Below, piece after piece: positions 10,113 through 34,108 of a stretch of 34,945 bases of DNA (within the stretch, counting starts at the first letter, position 1; each line of letters opens with the position of its first letter). Source of the stretch: a virus; IMG/VR virus record IMGVR_UViG_3300023084_000066, positions 1-34,945 of that record. The stretch is one strand, 5' to 3'. A program made the translations under genes and the position numbers. Under the pieces are notes generated by a model. The model was given only the letters and a program-made list of their open reading frames with translations, ran no database searches and was not told the DNA's origin.

Positions 10113-13100
10113 ATGCCTCAGAAGACTAACCTTAATGTAAATCCTTATTACGAGGACTTTGACGCGAGTAAGAATTTTTATAAGATTCTATTCCGTCCTG
10201 GATACTCTATTCAAGGTAGGGAGCTAACACAAGTTCAATCTATTCTCCAAAACCAAATTGAAAGTTTTGGTAAGTATGCTTTCAAGCAAGGTGAGCAAGT
10301 TATCCCTGGTGAGGTAGGTCTCAATACAAAGCTAGATTATGTCAAATTATCTTCTGTTTCTGAAGTTGCGGTTTCAGAAGGAGATGAGATCGTATATAAG
10401 AAATATGACATCACCCAGTTACTTGGACAACAGTTGCGTGGTCTGACTTCTGGTGTTGTTGGCACAGTATTGACAGCAAAACTAGCAACAGAAAGCACTG
10501 CTGATACTATTTTTGTAAGTTACATTAATAGTGGCAACTCAAATACAGAATCAACCTTCCGTCAAGGTGAAACACTAGAGGTAGTAGATGGTGTCAATAC
10601 ACCACTTCTCGTAGTAGGAACAGATGGTAGTGTTCTACCAACTAGTATTCAAGTAACTAATCCTGACACTGGAGAAGTAACTTCTCTAGAAAGTCCTGCT
10701 ATGGGATTTGCTTCTGCTGTTAAAGTTCAAGAAGGTATCTATTTTGTCAATGGATATTTTGTTCGTAACGAAGAGCAGATTCTTGTTATCGAAGAGTATT
10801 ATGATAAACCATCTGCTAAAGTAGGATTTACAATCAAAGAAGAGATTGTAACACCAGAAGCAGATGCATCTCTATATGATAATGCAATTGGTTCATCCAA
10901 CTATACAGCACCTGGAGCACATAGACTAAAAATTAGTCTAGAGATGAAAGAGTTTGCTCTAGATGCAATTACAGATAAGAATTTCATTCAACTCCTAACA
11001 GTAAAGAGAGGAGTTGTTCAAAGAAAAGTTTCTACAACAGATTTCAGCGTTCTTGAGCAAACTCTTGCTCGCAGAACATTTGACGAGAGTGGTGATTATG
11101 TTGTCGATAATTTTGATATCGATGTTCGTGAATGGGCACAGAAAGATGGCAACAAAGGTCTTTATGGTGCTGATGAATTTGGTCTATACAATGGATACAC
11201 TGCTAGTGAAGCTTCCAGAAAAATGGTTGCTAGCATTGGTCCTGGTAAGGCATACATTAAAGGATATGAGATTGTTAATAAAGAAACCAAGTATCTCGAA
11301 ATTAACAAGGCAAGAGAAAGTCTCACTAGTGATAACGTAACACTAAAGACTAAGGGACTTCCTACTTTTAGTATTACTAATGTCTTTGGCAGTGTTCCTT
11401 TGAACAAAGAAGGATCGGATCTAACTGCATATCCAGACATTTTCCTATACAGCACTTTCTCAGATGGATCCATTGGTGTAAATGGAACTGAGGCAACTAC
11501 TGATCATAGACAGACTATTTCAAGAAGAGGTCTTACTTTTACAGCAAATGATGCTATCAGAACAATCACTCTAGATGTTCTAGGTCTTAATGGACAACCA
11601 GCTCTTGGAGCATTGACTGATGCCAATTTCCAAACAGAATACAAGACCCTGTATTTCATCAAATCAAGAAGTGCTGATGGCACTGCTACAGATATTGGAA
11701 CTGTAACCACTCTTGCTTATGCTACTATTAACAGACCTGGCATTAGTGACAACGAGAACAAGCAGTTCTTGGAATTGACTGTATTTGGCAATAAAGCAGA
11801 ATTAGAAAACCTTCTTCTTGAATATGATGAGGGAGATTCTGAGAAAAAGAGAAAGATCTTCCTTTCAAACGGAGATGCTCAAGACAATAATGATTATTGG
11901 GCAGAGGTAGTAGACTACAGAAACACAATTACACCTGTTATTGGTAAAGTAAAACCAAGCAACTTCTTCCTTAAGAAAAGAGGTGAAGGATTTAATTCAG
12001 ATTCTGATGTAGTTCTATCGAAGGGTCGCTTGTCTGGTGGATCCGAAACCTATAATAGTATCTTTGGGTTCTCTTACTTTGATCCTCAGTTCTTCACCAG
12101 AATTCTACTAGAAACTGTTCCTGCTGGTTTCGATGAAGGTAAGTATGTATTTGGATTAGAGAGTGGTGCTTACGGTGTTGTCGAAGGACCAGCTTCTGGT
12201 GTTTACTCTACCGACAGACTTCTATTCGTAAAAACTATTTCTGGAAACTTCAAGTCTGGAGAAACAATCAGAGATGAAGATTCAAACACTGTAAAGATTG
12301 CAAAAGACAACACCATTTCTCACTTCATTGTTATCGAGAGAGGATCTGGTTATTCTGCTGGTGCAGAAATTCTATTGAACGGTGTTACTTATGATGCATC
12401 TAAGATTGAACCCACCGTGTATGGTGGTAAAATTTATAAGGTAGCAATCAACAATCAGGCTGCTTTAAGAAATCTAGAATTCACACAACCACCCGAAATT
12501 GTTGTTACTGGAACTACAGACAGTGCAGGTGCTGCTGCTGTTCGTGCAGTTCTTGTTAGAAACGCAGTTACAACATACACACCACAAAACGTAAAATCCA
12601 TTGGTGGTTCATACGGATCTGGTGGCAGTAATAAGTTTAATGCAGACTTGGTTGTAGACAATCAGGCATATTCGAATATTTCTGCTGTAACTGACTATAC
12701 TTTCTTTGGTAAGAAAGGCACCATGTTTGTCGAATCGACAAGTTTCAGTGCTGATGCTTCTAGCATTCTTCAACAGGGCGATCTAATTCAATTCTCAGAT
12801 CAAGATAACAATCTAGTTCGTGCAACTGTTCAATATGCAACTCAAGCGGCAGGTGCTGCTAAGACTAGAATTTATCTAGACACTGCACTTCCTGGTGACG
12901 TAACAAACACCAGTATCGTCCGTCTAAGACCCAGACCAGAAAACACTAACGGTGGCACACTGCTGTTCCCAACTGGAAGTAAGCAGGTTGAGCAAATTTC
13001 TGCTGGGGGAGATGATACCAAGATTAAGTATTACTTCCGTAGAGACTTTGTAACCACTGCTTCTACTTCTGGTGGAACTATTACATTCGCAGCACAGTTG

Positions 13101-18206: not shown

Positions 18207-18422
18207 ATGTCTTATATCAAAGTTGAAGGGCATGATGGTCTTGTCAGGGACGAGACCACAGGTGCCATCTTGAATTACAACGATTCTGCTATTGAAGCTC
18301 GTCGTAAAATGAAAAGGTTGAATTCCGCGTTAGACGACATAAATATGTTGAAGGATGAAGTCTCTGAAATCAAATCCCTACTTAGAGAGTTAATAAGAAA
18401 TGCCAGCAATTCAAGTCGCTAG
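18207..18422 (+). CDS. Small coiled-coil protein of the structural operon
   Basis: 71 residues. The N-terminal part (SYIKVEGHDGLVRDETTGAI, 2-21) looks like a short beta-rich piece. Residues about 35-65 form an amphipathic helix with heptad-spaced hydrophobics (LDDINMLKDEVSEIKSLLRE), so an oligomer is likely. The gene starts nine bases after the preceding stop and its end overlaps the next gene by 23 bases, so translation is probably coupled. I recall similar small ORFs near structural genes of marine T4-like phages, but cannot name a function. A chaperone or small baseplate/fibre component is possible. Confidence 0.78.
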   Translation: MSYIKVEGHDGLVRDETTGAILNYNDSAIEARRKMKRLNSALDDINMLKDEVSEIKSLLRELIRNASNSSR

Positions 18423-21400
18423 AACCGATACCTTTGAACAACAAAGGGTAAAAATTAATGAAATTGGATCGCAGATTTTTAATATTTCTGCTGGTGGTAG
18501 TGATTTAGCTACGGGTCTATTAAAAATTGGCGATGGTTCGAGATTAATCCCATCTCTATCTTTTACAAATGATCCCCAACTTGGTATCTATAGACCAGAA
18601 ATTAATACTTTAGGTATCGTAAGTTCAACAAAAAATATTGTTGATTTTTCAAGTCAATCTGTTTTTTATTACAGAGATTTAATTCTTAGAAAAAGAATTT
18701 TAGGAGATACAAACCTCACCATTAATAATGCTGGCAGTGGATATGATGCTGGTCAATACACAGATATATCTCTTATTGGTGGTTCTGGTGAACTTGGGAC
18801 AGTAGATATTGTAGTAACAGAATTTATTGGAACTATCAATAGTGAAGGAAGAAATTATACTCCAGGAACATATACAGCCGTTTTATTAACTGGTGGATCT
18901 GGTTCTGGTGCATCTGTTGATTTTCTCATCGATCCAATTACGGGTGATATTAATGATGGTGGATCTGCATATGTTCCAGGACAATATCAAAATGTTCCAC
19001 TTACTGGTGGTTCTGGATCTGGAGCAACAGCAAACATTACTATTGGCGGAGATACTACTCTCTCTGGTAGCGTTACTAACGCTGGTTCTGGATATACAGA
19101 TAATATTTACAGCAATATTCCGCTACGAAATGTTGCTACCGCTACTTATACGGTAACTACCGTAGCAAATCCATCTCCTCTACCAAATTCACTATATCAA
19201 ATTAATGGAGTAACTCAACAAACTCTTACTCTTGATAAAGGAAATACATATAGATTTGATATTTCCGATGCTAGTGTTAGTGGACATCCTTTTGGATTTC
19301 TTGATGGTTCTGGAAACCTATTAGATTTCCAATTTTACTTAATTAATAAAGTTGGTTCAGAGGGTAGTGCTGGTTCGTTTGTTGATCTTATTATTCTCCC
19401 AGAAGCTCCAACAGAAACAATTCAATATTATTGCACGTCCCATGCTGGTATGGGAGCAACAATTAGTGTTGTATCTGGAACTACTGGAGTTTATGGAAAT
19501 GGAGCATTAGCAAACTTTGAGGTTGTTGGCGGTGTTGTAACTAATTTTGTTTTAGCAGATCAAGGAAGTAGATATAAACAAAACGATCAACTAATAGTTA
19601 CATCAATTGATGCTGGTGGATCTGGATCTGGACTTGTTTATACAATTAATAACGTTGTTTTTACAGGAACCGTAAATGATGTACAAATTCAATCTTCTGG
19701 TCAAAATTACGTTCTTGGAGATCTTTTATCAGCATCCGATTCTGATTTAGGAGGTGGAGGAGGTTCTGGATTTGAGTTTGCTATATCTTCTTCTCCTGGA
19801 ATTATTAGAGACTTAAATTTCATCTCCAAGGGATCTGGATATCAAGTAGGAGATTTGTTAACACTATCAACAGGATTTACTGGTGTTACTGGAGACTTTA
19901 TTGTTAATATAAGTGGACTTGCTGGAAACGCAACTTCAGGATCAAACGTAGTAACTGTTGCTTCTACGGTTGGCATCTATTCTGGAATGCAGATTACTGT
20001 TCTTGGTGGATCTACGGGAGACTTCCCACCAAATGTAACAGTCGATCAAGTTACAGGAGGAACAACATTTACTGCTAGCGATGTTGCTAATGCTACTGGA
20101 GCGTTGTCAATGGATTTGACAAATCCAGGCAACCAAGAAGATGTTCTAGTTTCCTCTACTGCAAATATAAATCAAGGCGATATCGTAACTGTTGCATCTG
20201 GATCGGGAGCACTACCAGCAAATACAACAATCACTTCAGTTAATGAGTTGTCTGGTAGTATTACATTATCAAACACTCCTACTGCTGGTGGTCCAGTTGT
20301 TTTAACAATTAGTCCATCTTTTGGAGTAGGAACAACGCCATTTGAATATGAAGTTCAATCTCTTGGATCTGTAGAATCTTTTCTAGTAAATAATCCTGGT
20401 AATGGATACAATGTAAACGACCTACTAACAGTAGCACCCGAAGATTTAGTCCAACCAATTACATATACTGTTACTGCAAGATCTGTATTAACTATTACTT
20501 TCACCACGTCAGTTTCAGCGACATTCTTTAGTGTTGGTAATTTTATTGATTATGATAATGCTGGATTTATTAATTCTTATGAAATTATTCAAGTAAATAC
20601 TTCTGGATCAAATCTCCAATCGTTATTAATTGTTGGAGATAATTTAGATTCGGGAAGCGTAGTTGTAAAACAAGGCACATCATCTCCACAATTAACTGTC
20701 GATACATCAACTGCTGGTAATAGATTTTTGATAGATACGGGATCTGGACCTCAACTAACTCCAGATTTGACGTTGTATGTCGGAAACACTTATATTTTTG
20801 ATACCACAGATTCAAGTAACGATTCGCATCAGTTTGCGTTTTCAGAATTTAGAGATGGTATTCACGCACCAAGTTTAGTAGAAAATGTATCTACTACCCT
20901 GTCTTCTACATCTGCAGTAATTACTGTTGCTTCTACAACAGGAATTCTTGCAGGTATGCAAGTTACTAAGATAACTGGATCTGGTGAAATTCTACCTGGA
21001 GTTACGGTAGAAAGTGTTGATTCTGCAACTCAAATTACATTATCACAAATACCAACCGTAAGTGGAAATGTTGTTCTTAGTTTTTCTGGCGTAGAATACA
21101 CCTCTGGTATAACAAGAACTGCAGCAGCGGTGACAATTAAAGTTGTAGATACAACACCAAACCTTTATTATTATTGTAATAATTCTGGTGCCACACATGC
21201 AGATATGGGTGGTATTGATAATCAAGAAGCAACTGTTACTATTGATCCAAATAATCCAAAAACATTTGGAAGTGGATTTCAATTAATTGCAAATACTATT
21301 AGCTCCAGCGATACACTAACTTTTGATATTCTAGATGGCGAAATAACTTCAGAAAATATTGTTACGGATGACATTAACGCCACAGAAGGAACTATTGCAA

Positions 21401-23271
21401 CATTTAATGCAACAACTGGAACAATTCCAACTTTAAATACGAATGTCATTACATCTGGTTCGGAATTAGTAATTAGCCCAACTACAAGATTTTCATCTAC
21501 TGTAAATATTGGTTCGAACAATATTACACTAAATCATCTGAATGGTAATATTACAACTCCTGGAATTATAACCACCAACAATTCTTTGAATGTAAATTCT
21601 AAACTTACTATTGTTGACGCAGAGATTTCTTCTATTGGATCCAATGATTTAGAACTTACAGCAGCTCCTGGATATTTAACAAAAGTAACTGGAACTGGTT
21701 CGTTTGTTATTCCTTCTGGAAATACATTAGAGAGACCAATTTTTCTAGCATCGGAAGGAAATGGCGCAATTAGATTTAATACCACAACAAATCAATATGA
21801 AGGTTATAGTCAAATTTCCAGTTCTTGGGCTTCTTTAGGTGGTGTAAGAGACACTGATGGAAATACTTATATTATTGCTGAAGAATCTGTTACTCCATCA
21901 CCAACTAATGATAATCGTCTGTGGTTCTATAATGATGGACAAAATAGTTTTAGATTTACGAACCAATATCAAGAATTCATGACAGCAAAGAGAGTTAGAT
22001 CTCTCAATGTTAATGCTCCAGATTATACAGAATGGGCAGCAAATACCCCTGTTAATGTTGGGGATTATTTAAAATATAACAATGACATTTATGAAGTTGT
22101 AGGTGCTGGAGGAACTGGAACTAGTGGAAATGAACCCAATGATCAGTCAGGCAATCCATTTGTTAATGGAACTGCCACGTTGCAATATTCTACGACTGCA
22201 GTAGGTCCAATTACATTTGAACAAGTTTCGCAAATTAACATTGGACCAACTATTTCGGTTCCAATGGTATTCCAAAATGATCTCCGCATCACGAAAAATA
22301 CTATTGCTACTGATGTTACAGATCTTGAATTCAAACCAAATACTGGTAGAAGAATTATTTGTACTTCTAAAACTCACTTACAAATTCCAGCAGGAACAGA
22401 GAGTGAGAAGAGCACAGGAACTGCAAAGAATGGTTCTATTCGATACAATACAACCAATCAGGTTTACGAAGGTTTTAGTGAAACTACTCAAACTTGGGGA
22501 TCTCTTGGTGGAGTAAAAGACGTAGATCAGAATACTTATATTATTCCAGAACTAGGTCCTGGAACTAACGAAAACATTCTCTACTTCTTCAATGACAATG
22601 TTAATACTCTTCAACTAACAACAACTACACTTGATTTTACAAATATCAATACAGTTTCTTGTTCGTTTGATGATAGTTTAGAAATTACTGCGTCTACAGT
22701 AACATTTGACAATTCATCCACAACTATTGATAATACTGTTTCTGATAGAACATTTATCCACACATCTAAAGATAAGTTGGATCTTGGTCTATCAACTGGA
22801 TTGGTTGTAGATCCACTGTTGAGACTAGATGATCAAGGTGATGTATATTATAATGTTGGGTTTGGATCTGGTTCAGAATCACTAGTCAGAATTTTTGACA
22901 AAGAACTTGCTAACCTAGAAATTTCTAAGTATAGAATTACTACAAGTAATGCTGCTCTATTGAAAGGAACTACTAACAATGGTTCTGCAGTGATCTATGC
23001 ACCATCTACAGAACTTTCTGCTAAGGTTGAATTGGTTGCTCATAATGCAACCACTGGCGCAAAAGAAGTTATTGAGTTCTCTGTTATAGATAATGGTAGC
23101 GATATTTTCTACACTGAGGTAGGAACCATTCAATCAAATGGATCTATCATCGATTATACATTTGATTTTAATGTGAACAATGCTGTTCGTCTAAATTACT
23201 CTCTTGCTACTGGAGTTGCCAACGCAAACGCTGTTAATGTAACTGTTGTCTCAAACGTAATTAAGAAGTAA
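18400..23271 (+). CDS. Modular fibre-like virion protein with two cupredoxin-like domains
   Basis: 1623 residues. The N-terminal 90 residues (IQVARTDTFEQQRVKINEIG; LGIYRPE near 65) are probably the attachment part. Then come: GSGY beta repeats (108-244); cupredoxin-like domain 1 (246-359) with His296, Cys345, His348 and Met351; more GSGY repeats (360-505); two VTV/GM beta modules (about 508-640); cupredoxin-like domain 2 (768-949) with His810, Cys926, His933 and Met936, split by a third VTV module at 832-897. A fibrous region rich in Thr, Ile and Asn follows (about 960-1110). After it come two copies of a fibre module with W-[AG]-SLGGV-[RK]-D (1119-1187 and 1340-1406) flanking a TPVNVGDY/NG-x-ATLQY module. 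This looks like a tail fibre or baseplate-attached fibre. Copper binding is inferred from ligand spacing only. Overlap with the preceding gene supports the ATG at 18400. Confidence 0.85.
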   Translation: MPAIQVARTDTFEQQRVKINEIGSQIFNISAGGSDLATGLLKIGDGSRLIPSLSFTNDPQLGIYRPEINTLGIVSSTKNIVDFSSQSVFYYRDLILRKRILGDTNLTINNAGSGYDAGQYTDISLIGGSGELGTVDIVVTEFIGTINSEGRNYTPGTYTAVLLTGGSGSGASVDFLIDPITGDINDGGSAYVPGQYQNVPLTGGSGSGATANITIGGDTTLSGSVTNAGSGYTDNIYSNIPLRNVATATYTVTTVANPSPLPNSLYQINGVTQQTLTLDKGNTYRFDISDASVSGHPFGFLDGSGNLLDFQFYLINKVGSEGSAGSFVDLIILPEAPTETIQYYCTSHAGMGATISVVSGTTGVYGNGALANFEVVGGVVTNFVLADQGSRYKQNDQLIVTSIDAGGSGSGLVYTINNVVFTGTVNDVQIQSSGQNYVLGDLLSASDSDLGGGGGSGFEFAISSSPGIIRDLNFISKGSGYQVGDLLTLSTGFTGVTGDFIVNISGLAGNATSGSNVVTVASTVGIYSGMQITVLGGSTGDFPPNVTVDQVTGGTTFTASDVANATGALSMDLTNPGNQEDVLVSSTANINQGDIVTVASGSGALPANTTITSVNELSGSITLSNTPTAGGPVVLTISPSFGVGTTPFEYEVQSLGSVESFLVNNPGNGYNVNDLLTVAPEDLVQPITYTVTARSVLTITFTTSVSATFFSVGNFIDYDNAGFINSYEIIQVNTSGSNLQSLLIVGDNLDSGSVVVKQGTSSPQLTVDTSTAGNRFLIDTGSGPQLTPDLTLYVGNTYIFDTTDSSNDSHQFAFSEFRDGIHAPSLVENVSTTLSSTSAVITVASTTGILAGMQVTKITGSGEILPGVTVESVDSATQITLSQIPTVSGNVVLSFSGVEYTSGITRTAAAVTIKVVDTTPNLYYYCNNSGATHADMGGIDNQEATVTIDPNNPKTFGSGFQLIANTISSSDTLTFDILDGEITSENIVTDDINATEGTIATFNATTGTIPTLNTNVITSGSELVISPTTRFSSTVNIGSNNITLNHLNGNITTPGIITTNNSLNVNSKLTIVDAEISSIGSNDLELTAAPGYLTKVTGTGSFVIPSGNTLERPIFLASEGNGAIRFNTTTNQYEGYSQISSSWASLGGVRDTDGNTYIIAEESVTPSPTNDNRLWFYNDGQNSFRFTNQYQEFMTAKRVRSLNVNAPDYTEWAANTPVNVGDYLKYNNDIYEVVGAGGTGTSGNEPNDQSGNPFVNGTATLQYSTTAVGPITFEQVSQINIGPTISVPMVFQNDLRITKNTIATDVTDLEFKPNTGRRIICTSKTHLQIPAGTESEKSTGTAKNGSIRYNTTNQVYEGFSETTQTWGSLGGVKDVDQNTYIIPELGPGTNENILYFFNDNVNTLQLTTTTLDFTNINTVSCSFDDSLEITASTVTFDNSSTTIDNTVSDRTFIHTSKDKLDLGLSTGLVVDPLLRLDDQGDVYYNVGFGSGSESLVRIFDKELANLEISKYRITTSNAALLKGTTNNGSAVIYAPSTELSAKVELVAHNATTGAKEVIEFSVIDNGSDIFYTEVGTIQSNGSIIDYTFDFNVNNAVRLNYSLATGVANANAVNVTVVSNVIKK
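18721..19131 (+). repeat. GSGY beta-repeat array, N-terminal side of cupredoxin 1
   Basis: About four tandem units in the 1623-residue protein. They follow the pattern G-S-G-Y, x-x-x-Y-x-N-V-P-L, T-G-G-S-G-S-G-A, then a short strand with gG-x-V/I. The last unit stops after YSNIPLRN, where the cupredoxin sequence begins. Degenerate DNA repeats (GGTTCTGGATCTGG-like) underlie it. Confidence 0.8.
19135..19476 (+). other. Cupredoxin-like domain 1 (protein domain within the 18400-23271 gene)
   Basis: Residues 246-359 read as strand TYTVTT, the NTYRFDISD strand, SGHPFGF with His296, then a strand and YYCTSHAGMGA with Cys345, His348 and Met351. The C-x2-H-x2-M spacing is that of amicyanin-type blue-copper sites. 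All four classical type-1 ligands are present. Function in copper binding is inferred. Confidence 0.72.
19477..19920 (+). repeat. GSGY-type beta repeats after cupredoxin 1
   Basis: The first unit (GNGALANFEVVGGVVTNFVL) looks like the second half of the repeat broken by cupredoxin 1. Further units carry QGSRY, SGQNY and KGSGY turns, each followed by a -x-x-D-LL- strand. They lie at about residues 360-505. Confidence 0.7.
19921..20316 (+). repeat. Two VTV/GM beta modules
   Basis: Two adjacent copies of a roughly 60-residue module: VVTVASTVGIYSGMQIT with PPNVTV, and VLVSSTANINQGDIVTV with PANTTITSV and GSITLS. The same module recurs at 20893-21090 (nested in cupredoxin 2) and at about 4236-4395 in the first gene. 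Confidence 0.68.
20701..21246 (+). other. Cupredoxin-like domain 2, split by an inserted module
   Basis: Residues 768-949. LTLYVGNTYIFDTTDSS leads into SHQFAF with His810; the C-terminal ligand loop is YYYCNNSGATHADMGG with Cys926, His933 and Met936. The Cys-His gap (six residues) is longer than in domain 1, but H-x2-M is kept. Between DGIHAPSL and VEYTSGIT the fold is interrupted by a 66-residue VTV/GM module at 20893-21090, so the ligand spacing His-to-Cys is 116 residues against 49 in domain 1. Confidence 0.65.
21754..21960 (+). repeat. Fibre module copy 1 (IRFNTTTNQYEGY...SWASLGGVRD)
   Basis: Residues 1119-1187 contain GAIRFNTTTNQYEGY, SSWASLGGVRDTDGNTYI and LWFYND. Copy 2 lies at 22417-22617. 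The first half is related to the N-terminal mini-module of the two terminal adhesin genes. Confidence 0.75.
22417..22617 (+). repeat. Fibre module copy 2 (IRYNTTNQVYEGF...TWGSLGGVKD)
   Basis: Residues 1340-1406 contain GSIRYNTTNQVYEGF, TWGSLGGVKDVDQNTYI and LYFFND. They align with copy 1 without large gaps, indicating an internal duplication. Confidence 0.75.
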
Positions 23272-33247: not shown

Positions 33248-34108
33248 ATGGCAAGATATTATTCATCTAGATTTCAATCAGAAAGAATTAATTCTTCTGA
33301 TGCATTGCAAGTCCCCATCTACGAAAACGACCAAGACCTCTTGGATGGTGAAGATGGGGAAATGATGTATATTGAAGGTCAGATGCAATATTATTATAAT
33401 GGATCTTGGCAAAACATCAAAGTAAAAAGAAGAGATGGAAGTTCAGCTGCGTCTGCTGCTTTAAATGCAACTGATTTAAAATCAACTCTCGGAGCAAATG
33501 CTGTTAATGGATCATATTGGTATCAATTCAATGATGGATCACAGCAACAACTTTGGACAGACTTCACATCATATGCTCCATATAATTTTGTAATGGTTCA
33601 AAGAACCAGCAATACTACAAATTCTCAATATCAAACTGGATCATTAAATCCTACAGATCTTGCATTAGCTCCAAATGATACTGCACCAACACAAGTTGCA
33701 AAATTATCAGATTTGAATCAAAGGGACATTACTACCAGTGGAACTGTTCGATGGGTTATTGCTGGCGCTGGTCAGATGTGGTATAAAATGGTAGGAGATC
33801 CAGATTGGTATTCTGATTTTGGAGTTGCTGCTTGTTGCTCATGTAATAATCCAAATTTTTATGATGGATATGCTACTCCATCATCAACTCCTATTTGGGA
33901 ATCTGGAATTATTCATAATGGTGGTTGTGGTGGCGGACAAAATAGTGCTGGCGGATGGCTAGTCCTCTCTGGTATTCACCTTAATGATAATAACTACCTA
34001 GGTGGTTATAATGGAGCCTCTACTGGAGTTGGTTCAACTATTTCTCCGTATCTGTGTGGCGGTGGCACAGGTTGGGGTCTCAATGGTTATGTTTTGATGT
34101 CTTGGTAA
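33248..34108 (+). CDS. Short tail adhesin-like protein, possible fibrinogen-like C-terminal domain
   Basis: 286 residues. The N-terminal 60 residues contain GEMMYIEGQMQYYYNGSWQN, a fibre mini-module also seen in the next gene and the cupredoxin gene. The C-terminal 190 residues start NGSYWYQFNDGSQQQLWTDF, then NFVMVQRTSN, a cysteine cluster AACCSCNN near 195, and end in Gly-rich CGGGTGWGLNGYVLMSW. The Y-W-x-x-x-x-D-G ... VQR layout recalls fibrinogen-related/intelectin carbohydrate-binding domains, but the match is distant. No ribosome binding site is visible; the ATG lies nine bases after the preceding stop. It is probably a receptor-binding tip or fibre accessory. Confidence 0.78.
   Translation: MARYYSSRFQSERINSSDALQVPIYENDQDLLDGEDGEMMYIEGQMQYYYNGSWQNIKVKRRDGSSAASAALNATDLKSTLGANAVNGSYWYQFNDGSQQQLWTDFTSYAPYNFVMVQRTSNTTNSQYQTGSLNPTDLALAPNDTAPTQVAKLSDLNQRDITTSGTVRWVIAGAGQMWYKMVGDPDWYSDFGVAACCSCNNPNFYDGYATPSSTPIWESGIIHNGGCGGGQNSAGGWLVLSGIHLNDNNYLGGYNGASTGVGSTISPYLCGGGTGWGLNGYVLMSW

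Follow-up and report, generated by a model that had tools for sequence, protein, structure and literature searches.

We identified a domain of a large virion protein, encoded by a T4-like marine cyanophage, that is probably a cupredoxin with an intact type-1 ligand set kept under selection. The domain (residues 246-359) most likely binds a single copper, and it appears to represent a module shuffled among the particle proteins of marine phages. The window, by which we mean the whole stretch of DNA analysed, is a virus record of 34,945 bases. The features concerning this domain, hereafter copy 1, are given below; residues are described as invariant with respect to alignments A1 and A3, from both of which the known ligand-less rows had been left out (L034 and L035 from A1; L235, plus annotated phage loci, from A3).

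18400..23271, plus strand: 1623-aa virion structural protein (phrog_6005, E = 0, 1715 bits)
19135..19476, plus strand: cupredoxin domain copy 1 with the complete blue-copper ligand set, aa 246-359 (AlphaFold2 model, PDB fold matches, alignments A1 and A3)
19285..19287, plus strand: His296, proposed first copper ligand, in GHPF (invariant in A1 and A3)
19432..19434, plus strand: Cys345, proposed thiolate ligand (invariant in A1 and A3)
19441..19443, plus strand: His348, proposed second His ligand (invariant in A1 and A3)
19450..19452, plus strand: Met351, proposed axial ligand (invariant in A1, at least 90% in A3)

These four residues had been singled out in an earlier note on this DNA, and their positions in the 1623-aa open reading frame (ORF) are confirmed. 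As read from the sequence, the loop between Cys and Met is short and amicyanin-like. We infer that copy 1 binds a metal and that the metal is copper.

The 1623-aa protein belongs to phrog_6005, the profile of which matches four stretches over most of its length (the best being aa 724-1623), and this best match carries the PHROGs category 'head and packaging, virion structural protein'. A second match is to a baseplate wedge family (phrog_32294, 1.3e-61), and the copy-1 domain by itself matches tail-fibre and connector families (5.9e-13 and 1.5e-8). The earlier description of a fibre or baseplate protein is thus true of many relatives and plausible here, although the best PHROGs class of the window protein is head and packaging. 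Upstream lies a large ORF at 10113 (phrog_358), whose counterparts in relatives are annotated as 'baseplate wedge initiator' gp7 (ACG-2014h) or 'DUF4815' (Sf-CH1b), and a small virion protein (phrog_473) also precedes the 1623-aa ORF. No enzyme family was found above the Pfam cut-off in the 1623-aa protein; matches of the whole protein to PLDc and CBM families fell below the cut-off and were rejected. Elsewhere in the window (33248-34108), a 286-aa ORF without a PHROGs match at E <= 0.01 contains a cysteine cluster, ACCSC.

Among the eight ORFs scanned in the window, the pattern C-x2-H-x2-M occurs solely in copy 1 of the 1623-aa protein. At the DNA level, TGY-N6-CAY is no commoner than chance (87 matches versus 92.8 expected), so the C-H motif by itself means little, and DNA-level motif counting was rejected as uninformative. 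The motif rises above chance because it is conserved in homologues. In A1, which comprises the window and 24 homologues sharing 28-58% identity with it, seven columns never vary (Y, F, H, Y, C, H and M), and all four ligands are among them. Across 208 non-identical copies found with the A1 profile, and counting those with letters at the position, the first His is present in 207/208, Cys in 205/205, the second His in 205/205 and Met in 204/205. We also used a profile of reduced circularity, in which the first His was hidden and the C-H-M loop omitted. With this profile, 221 of 224 non-identical copies were assessable (three were too short and were dropped: L196 and, for L018 and L020, the second copy), and the full set H...C-x(n)-H-x(n)-M/E was present in 214 of the 221, as the sum of an automated count of 211 and three recognized by eye (L206 second copy, L210 and L237). 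The axial residue of these 214 sets is Met in 210 (L024 included) and Glu in four, each of the latter belonging to a copy 2 or a similar extra copy. When copies were clustered at 60% identity, the 32 representatives had the first His in 31, Cys with the second His in 30 of the 30 with letters, Met in 29 and Glu in one.

Departures from the full set are few. L034, L035 and L239 keep the first His and are devoid of Cys, His and Met; L235 has no ligand set; L240 retains Met alone; and the second copies of L241 and L242 are without the first His and end before the loop. No copy with a readable loop has Cys without the second His, or the reverse. The C-x2-H-x2-M spacing itself is found in 21 of 24 rows from 20 loci, one of them a shortened repeat of another row, and of the three exceptions two are pieces of copy 2 and the third is another copy. 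As a point against the copper reading, the first His is in most cases followed by Pro, where phage plastocyanins have Asn. Viral and genome contig loci were found with short peptide patterns, some of which contained the first His, Cys, second His or Met, and counts on these loci therefore lean towards conservation. Phage loci obtained by tblastn are free of this pattern bias, though a similarity search still favours complete relatives. By inspection of their translations, 30 phage loci, drawn from overlapping lists of 52 and 64 records (60 of the latter listed) with duplicates (L022 and L025 are near-identical), have the full set in 26 cases and are without it in four (L034, L035, L239 and L240). 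Taken across A1, the 60% clusters and the 214 of 221 copies, copy-1 homologues do not freely lose the ligands; such loss had been named beforehand as an outcome that would speak against the copper interpretation. As a separate observation, the ligand-less L034, L035, L239 and L235 have the string GTEYT in common; they comprise tail fibre or structural proteins from phages P-RSM6, S-SZBM1 and S-WAM1, plus one protein from a Nonlabens contig.

The predicted fold of copy 1 is that of a cupredoxin, a Greek-key beta-sandwich, according to AlphaFold2, Foldseek and VIA-align. The AlphaFold2 model of aa 244-367, built with 57 sequences, has a mean pLDDT of 92.1 and a pTM of 0.85, and its nine strands bear out the beta-rich character ascribed to this region before. 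In model numbering, H53 lies just before strand 55-58, C102 ends strand 96-102, and H105 and M108 lie in the turn preceding strand 109-115; the ligands as modelled fit the topology of type-1 copper cupredoxins in order and placement. Foldseek returned 14 PDB matches at E <= 0.001, comprising rusticyanin (8), three-domain copper nitrite reductase (4) and FLT3 Ig domains (2, with TM lower than those of the copper proteins). The best were rusticyanin (5.5e-5) and the Hyphomicrobium three-domain copper nitrite reductase (5.9e-5), with amicyanin and short-loop azurins at ranks 26, 36 and 40 and FLT3 Ig domains and copper oxidases in between. Among VIA-align rows shown with Z >= 8 (22 rows, 27 chains) are multicopper oxidases, two-domain laccases and three-domain nitrite reductase only, with a best Z of 8.9 and rmsd of 3.4-3.6 over 103-116 residues. 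Rows below Z 8, a level that may reflect just a common arrangement, include unrelated beta-sandwiches such as the SO1698 peptidase (Z 7.4). Several of the laccase rows match what we take to be a laccase domain without the type-1 site, and fold similarity alone is for that reason no proof of a site. When the model was compared with viral models, many matching rows were unnamed and the named ones included tail-fibre and virion proteins of cyanophages. This search also matched the model to small proteins from Pithovirus and Marseillevirus that are named 'beta-sandwich proteins' (E about 1e-6 to 1e-5).

Direct sequence comparison gave little connection between copy 1 and known copper proteins. The single copy-1 domain matched no Pfam family above cut-off and no PDB entry by sequence, and Pfam Copper-bind (PF00127) matched neither the window protein nor the domain; against the rows of A3, PF00127 matched 6 of 57 at E up to 0.1 (best 0.0046). 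In profile searches of the PDB, A1 found a SUMO chain first (0.0064) and plastocyanins at about 0.7. A3 found an Ig chain first (0.19), followed by pseudoazurin (0.23), nitrite reductase (0.73) and plastocyanins (1.2), such that blue copper proteins at E 0.2-1.2 were mixed with antibody and Ig chains. Compared directly with the profile of phage plastocyanins, A3 reached a probability of only 3.6%.

A connection emerged through an intermediate family. We searched Pfam Copper-bind in seven cyanophage genomes, chosen from those fetched, and found a separate plastocyanin-like gene above the cut-off in six of them (L245-L250), as well as four matches below the cut-off (18.1-19.8 bits versus 21.2) inside large open frames of 671-1842 aa, which constitute the bridging family A6. 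The A3 and A6 profiles match with a probability of 98.2% (E 5e-14), their alignment pairing all four ligands (His, Cys, His and Met), and A6 in turn matches rusticyanin (2.3e-5), plastocyanin (4.2e-5) and amicyanin (0.0015) in the PDB, the four ligands being aligned in the best of these matches, rusticyanin. By these profile comparisons the copy-1 family is homologous to type-1 copper cupredoxins, through the intermediate A6 only, the direct tests having failed or been weak. It could be argued instead that the motif arose by chance in a fibre domain of Ig-like fold that has no relation to blue copper proteins, as single-domain sequence searches find no copper protein and some Ig chains occur among the fold and profile matches; yet the fold ranking, the conservation and the A6 bridge with its ligands in register all contradict this reading, which we regard as extremely improbable. 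The interpretation of copy 1 as a copper-binding cupredoxin domain, put forward in the earlier note, is accordingly one that sequence comparison and predicted structure support.

The 1623-aa protein contains a second copy of the module, missed in the earlier note, that is split by an inserted domain.

20707..21270, plus strand: second, split cupredoxin-like copy (copy 2), aa 770-957, with H810, C926, H933 and M936 (model pLDDT 86.8; VIA-align Z 7.2 to 2dv6)
20869..21093, plus strand: insert within copy 2, aa 824-898 (8eci_1 aligns with residues 55-129 of the model)

In the window, the Cys-to-His loop of copy 2 is longer than that of copy 1. The halves of copy 2 align to nitrite reductase 2dv6 in VIA-align (Z 7.2, rmsd 2.8, 91 residues; further Z 7.1), values at a level that may reflect just a common arrangement, and its model had no Foldseek match in the PDB at E <= 0.001. 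The inserted domain resembles chain 8eci_1 of Arthrobacter phage Bridgette (Z 8.3, rmsd 2.1, 69 aligned), and it recurs in the same protein at window 19933-20100, the two being 46% identical across some 55 aa. The axial residue of copy 2 is Glu in contigs L003, L006 and L010. Each of the five named phages examined (S-H9-1, ACG-2014h, S-RIM32, S-H9-2 and Syn1) has a copy 2 that has lost Cys, His and Met, and in three of the five its first His is also gone. Given the lower-confidence model, the lack of a Foldseek match and the relatives without ligands, we rejected the general claim that copy 2 is also a functional copper site. In these five proteins, none of the four residues is missing from copy 1. 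Because copy 2 persists after losing Cys, His and Met, the module and its fold do not need the four residues, and the combination of loss in copy 2 and retention in copy 1 within the same proteins therefore suggests that the copy-1 site has a function, most simply the binding of copper.

The persistence of copy 2 without ligands would also suit a different explanation, in which the site would hold a different metal, zinc for instance, or stay empty in the particle, the fold serving as a sticky beta-sandwich with ancestral ligands. Cupredoxins can take other metals, and cytoplasmic assembly offers little copper; the supply of copper at that stage is indeed a difficulty for the copper reading. 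Relics, however, would not remain invariant in copy 1 at 28-58% identity while copy 2 loses them, and Met as an axial ligand is unusual for zinc, which leaves this explanation quite unlikely.

The module is widespread among marine phages. By tblastn, relatives of the domain were found in 52 of 50,697 phage records, and two related queries found 64 and 34. Those records that were listed belong to phages infecting Synechococcus, Prochlorococcus, Pelagibacter and Methylophilales or to phages from marine metagenomes, with a marine or estuarine habitat or host where given, and the relatives are annotated as tail fibre, baseplate wedge, virion structural protein or hypothetical. An orthologue of the window protein is present in seven cyanophages (1618-1717 aa, with the domain at aa 258-364 versus 246-359 in the window). 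For two other members, IMG/VR contained at least 600 and 422 related stretches (the best 80 of each were kept). The L027 relative had no match among plasmids at 1e-5. Single genomes have up to five A3-profile matches, some of which are two parts of one split copy, and P-SSM2 has four separate copies.

The protein contexts of the domain are varied. The gp7 baseplate wedge proteins of P-HM1, S-CAM22 and P-SSM7 contain it with ligands intact. In T7-type tail fibres on SAR11 genome contigs it lies towards the C-terminus (in L213 at aa 437-534 out of 587), and in three more fibres at 0.78-0.87 of the length; across the 25 proteins measured, its position ranges from 0.10 to 0.94 of the length. Two SAR86 genome contigs (L216:4764-5312 and L223:4767-5312) encode the domain with its four residues in a protein of 181-182 aa, the N-terminus of which is lipoprotein-like (a hydrophobic stretch, Cys and glycines). 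Gene order is shared between these contigs, with a 966-976-aa protein next in both, and we read the lipoprotein-like proteins as cellular genes. In phage MED4-213, the domain (L030:1501-1719) lies mostly between two genes annotated as 'baseplate wedge subunit', an arrangement that looks like one long gene annotated in pieces. Copying and the shuffling of domains have probably carried the module into the tail fibres, baseplate proteins and further particle proteins of marine phages. Since related full-ligand domains recur in particle proteins of many of these phages, copper may be present in their virions.

The cupredoxin family is an old one, and blue copper domains are known from textbooks as electron carriers and as parts of enzymes. 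Rusticyanin (1rcy, 1e30), the closest by fold to our model and by sequence to A6, differs in being a stand-alone protein with a longer Cys-to-Met loop, found outside virus particles. Amicyanin, which we take to have the C-x2-H-x2-M spacing, and short-loop azurins (2gb2, 2fta and 3fs9, with the loop letters in the titles of the latter two) have the same loop as copy 1, but they are small soluble electron carriers with a Foldseek E of only 0.003-0.008, and in copy 1 Pro follows the first His. The N-terminal domain of three-domain copper nitrite reductase (2dv6, 6tfo) is likewise a cupredoxin module embedded in a longer polypeptide (19-20% identity; Foldseek E 5.9e-5; VIA-align Z 8.9 with an rmsd of 3.4 across 103 residues), although there the domain is part of an enzyme. 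Cyanophage plastocyanin, the gene for which we take to be petE, brings the blue copper ligand set to the same kind of phage as a separate frame of 109-131 aa with a signal-peptide-like start. Copy 1, being inside a 1623-aa virion protein, is not a small exported stand-alone carrier of the plastocyanin or amicyanin type, and its distinctness from phage plastocyanin, asserted beforehand, is upheld by the plastocyanin-like gene that six of seven related genomes have besides the domain. Two different uses of the blue-copper ligand set thus occur within one phage genome in these six cyanophages. PMC10436341 lists petE for its cyanophage, so phage plastocyanin genes are already known. Among the open-licence papers listed by our text searches, judged by title and the beginning of the abstract, we found no report of a cupredoxin or blue copper domain as a building block of virus particles.

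We tentatively suggest that copy 1 could be an accessory domain, exposed on the particle, that aids attachment to the host surface. Its copper would then serve as a rigid staple instead of a disulphide, and possibly also as a feature recognized by the host surface. The many positions of the domain within proteins fit such a general module rather than one precise role in a machine. For this reason, among others, we think it very unlikely that the site is a redox switch, in which copper would become oxidised while the particle is in open sea water and reduced once it meets the host envelope, the change altering the fibre or baseplate and helping to start infection. Some points would suit a switch: the ligands of type-1 sites are adapted to one-electron exchange, copy 1 retains every ligand down to the Met, and the gp7 proteins of P-HM1, S-CAM22 and P-SSM7 have the domain with ligands. 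Against this, the domain is found in different proteins and positions, and type-1 copper sites barely move on reduction. A further alternative is a copper Trojan horse, whereby the loaded domain would be recognized by a host protein for copper uptake or handling. The burial of type-1 copper, except for a His edge, makes this distinctly unlikely, despite the marine or estuarine origin of the phage records listed (by name, host or source, where stated) and a precedent for iron. According to PMC11705849, phage tail fibres have iron-binding HxH motifs, for which an iron Trojan-horse idea has been advanced. These motifs resemble the copy-1 site in being a metal site in a marine phage tail protein and differ in using iron and paired His rather than a Cys-His-Met set.

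At its broadest, the role of the accessory domain in holding the host would extend to tails and baseplates of abundant marine phages that bear many functional blue-copper centres, of several kinds in each particle and used in adsorption through copper-dependent or redox-sensitive attachment. We consider this unlikely as a whole; if true, free virus particles would be a pool of strongly bound copper in the ocean. More generally, if copper is bound by the conserved copy-1 site, marine phages would be metalloprotein particles for copper, besides the iron already proposed, with a bearing on the attachment of cyanobacterial and SAR11 phages and on trace-metal chemistry.
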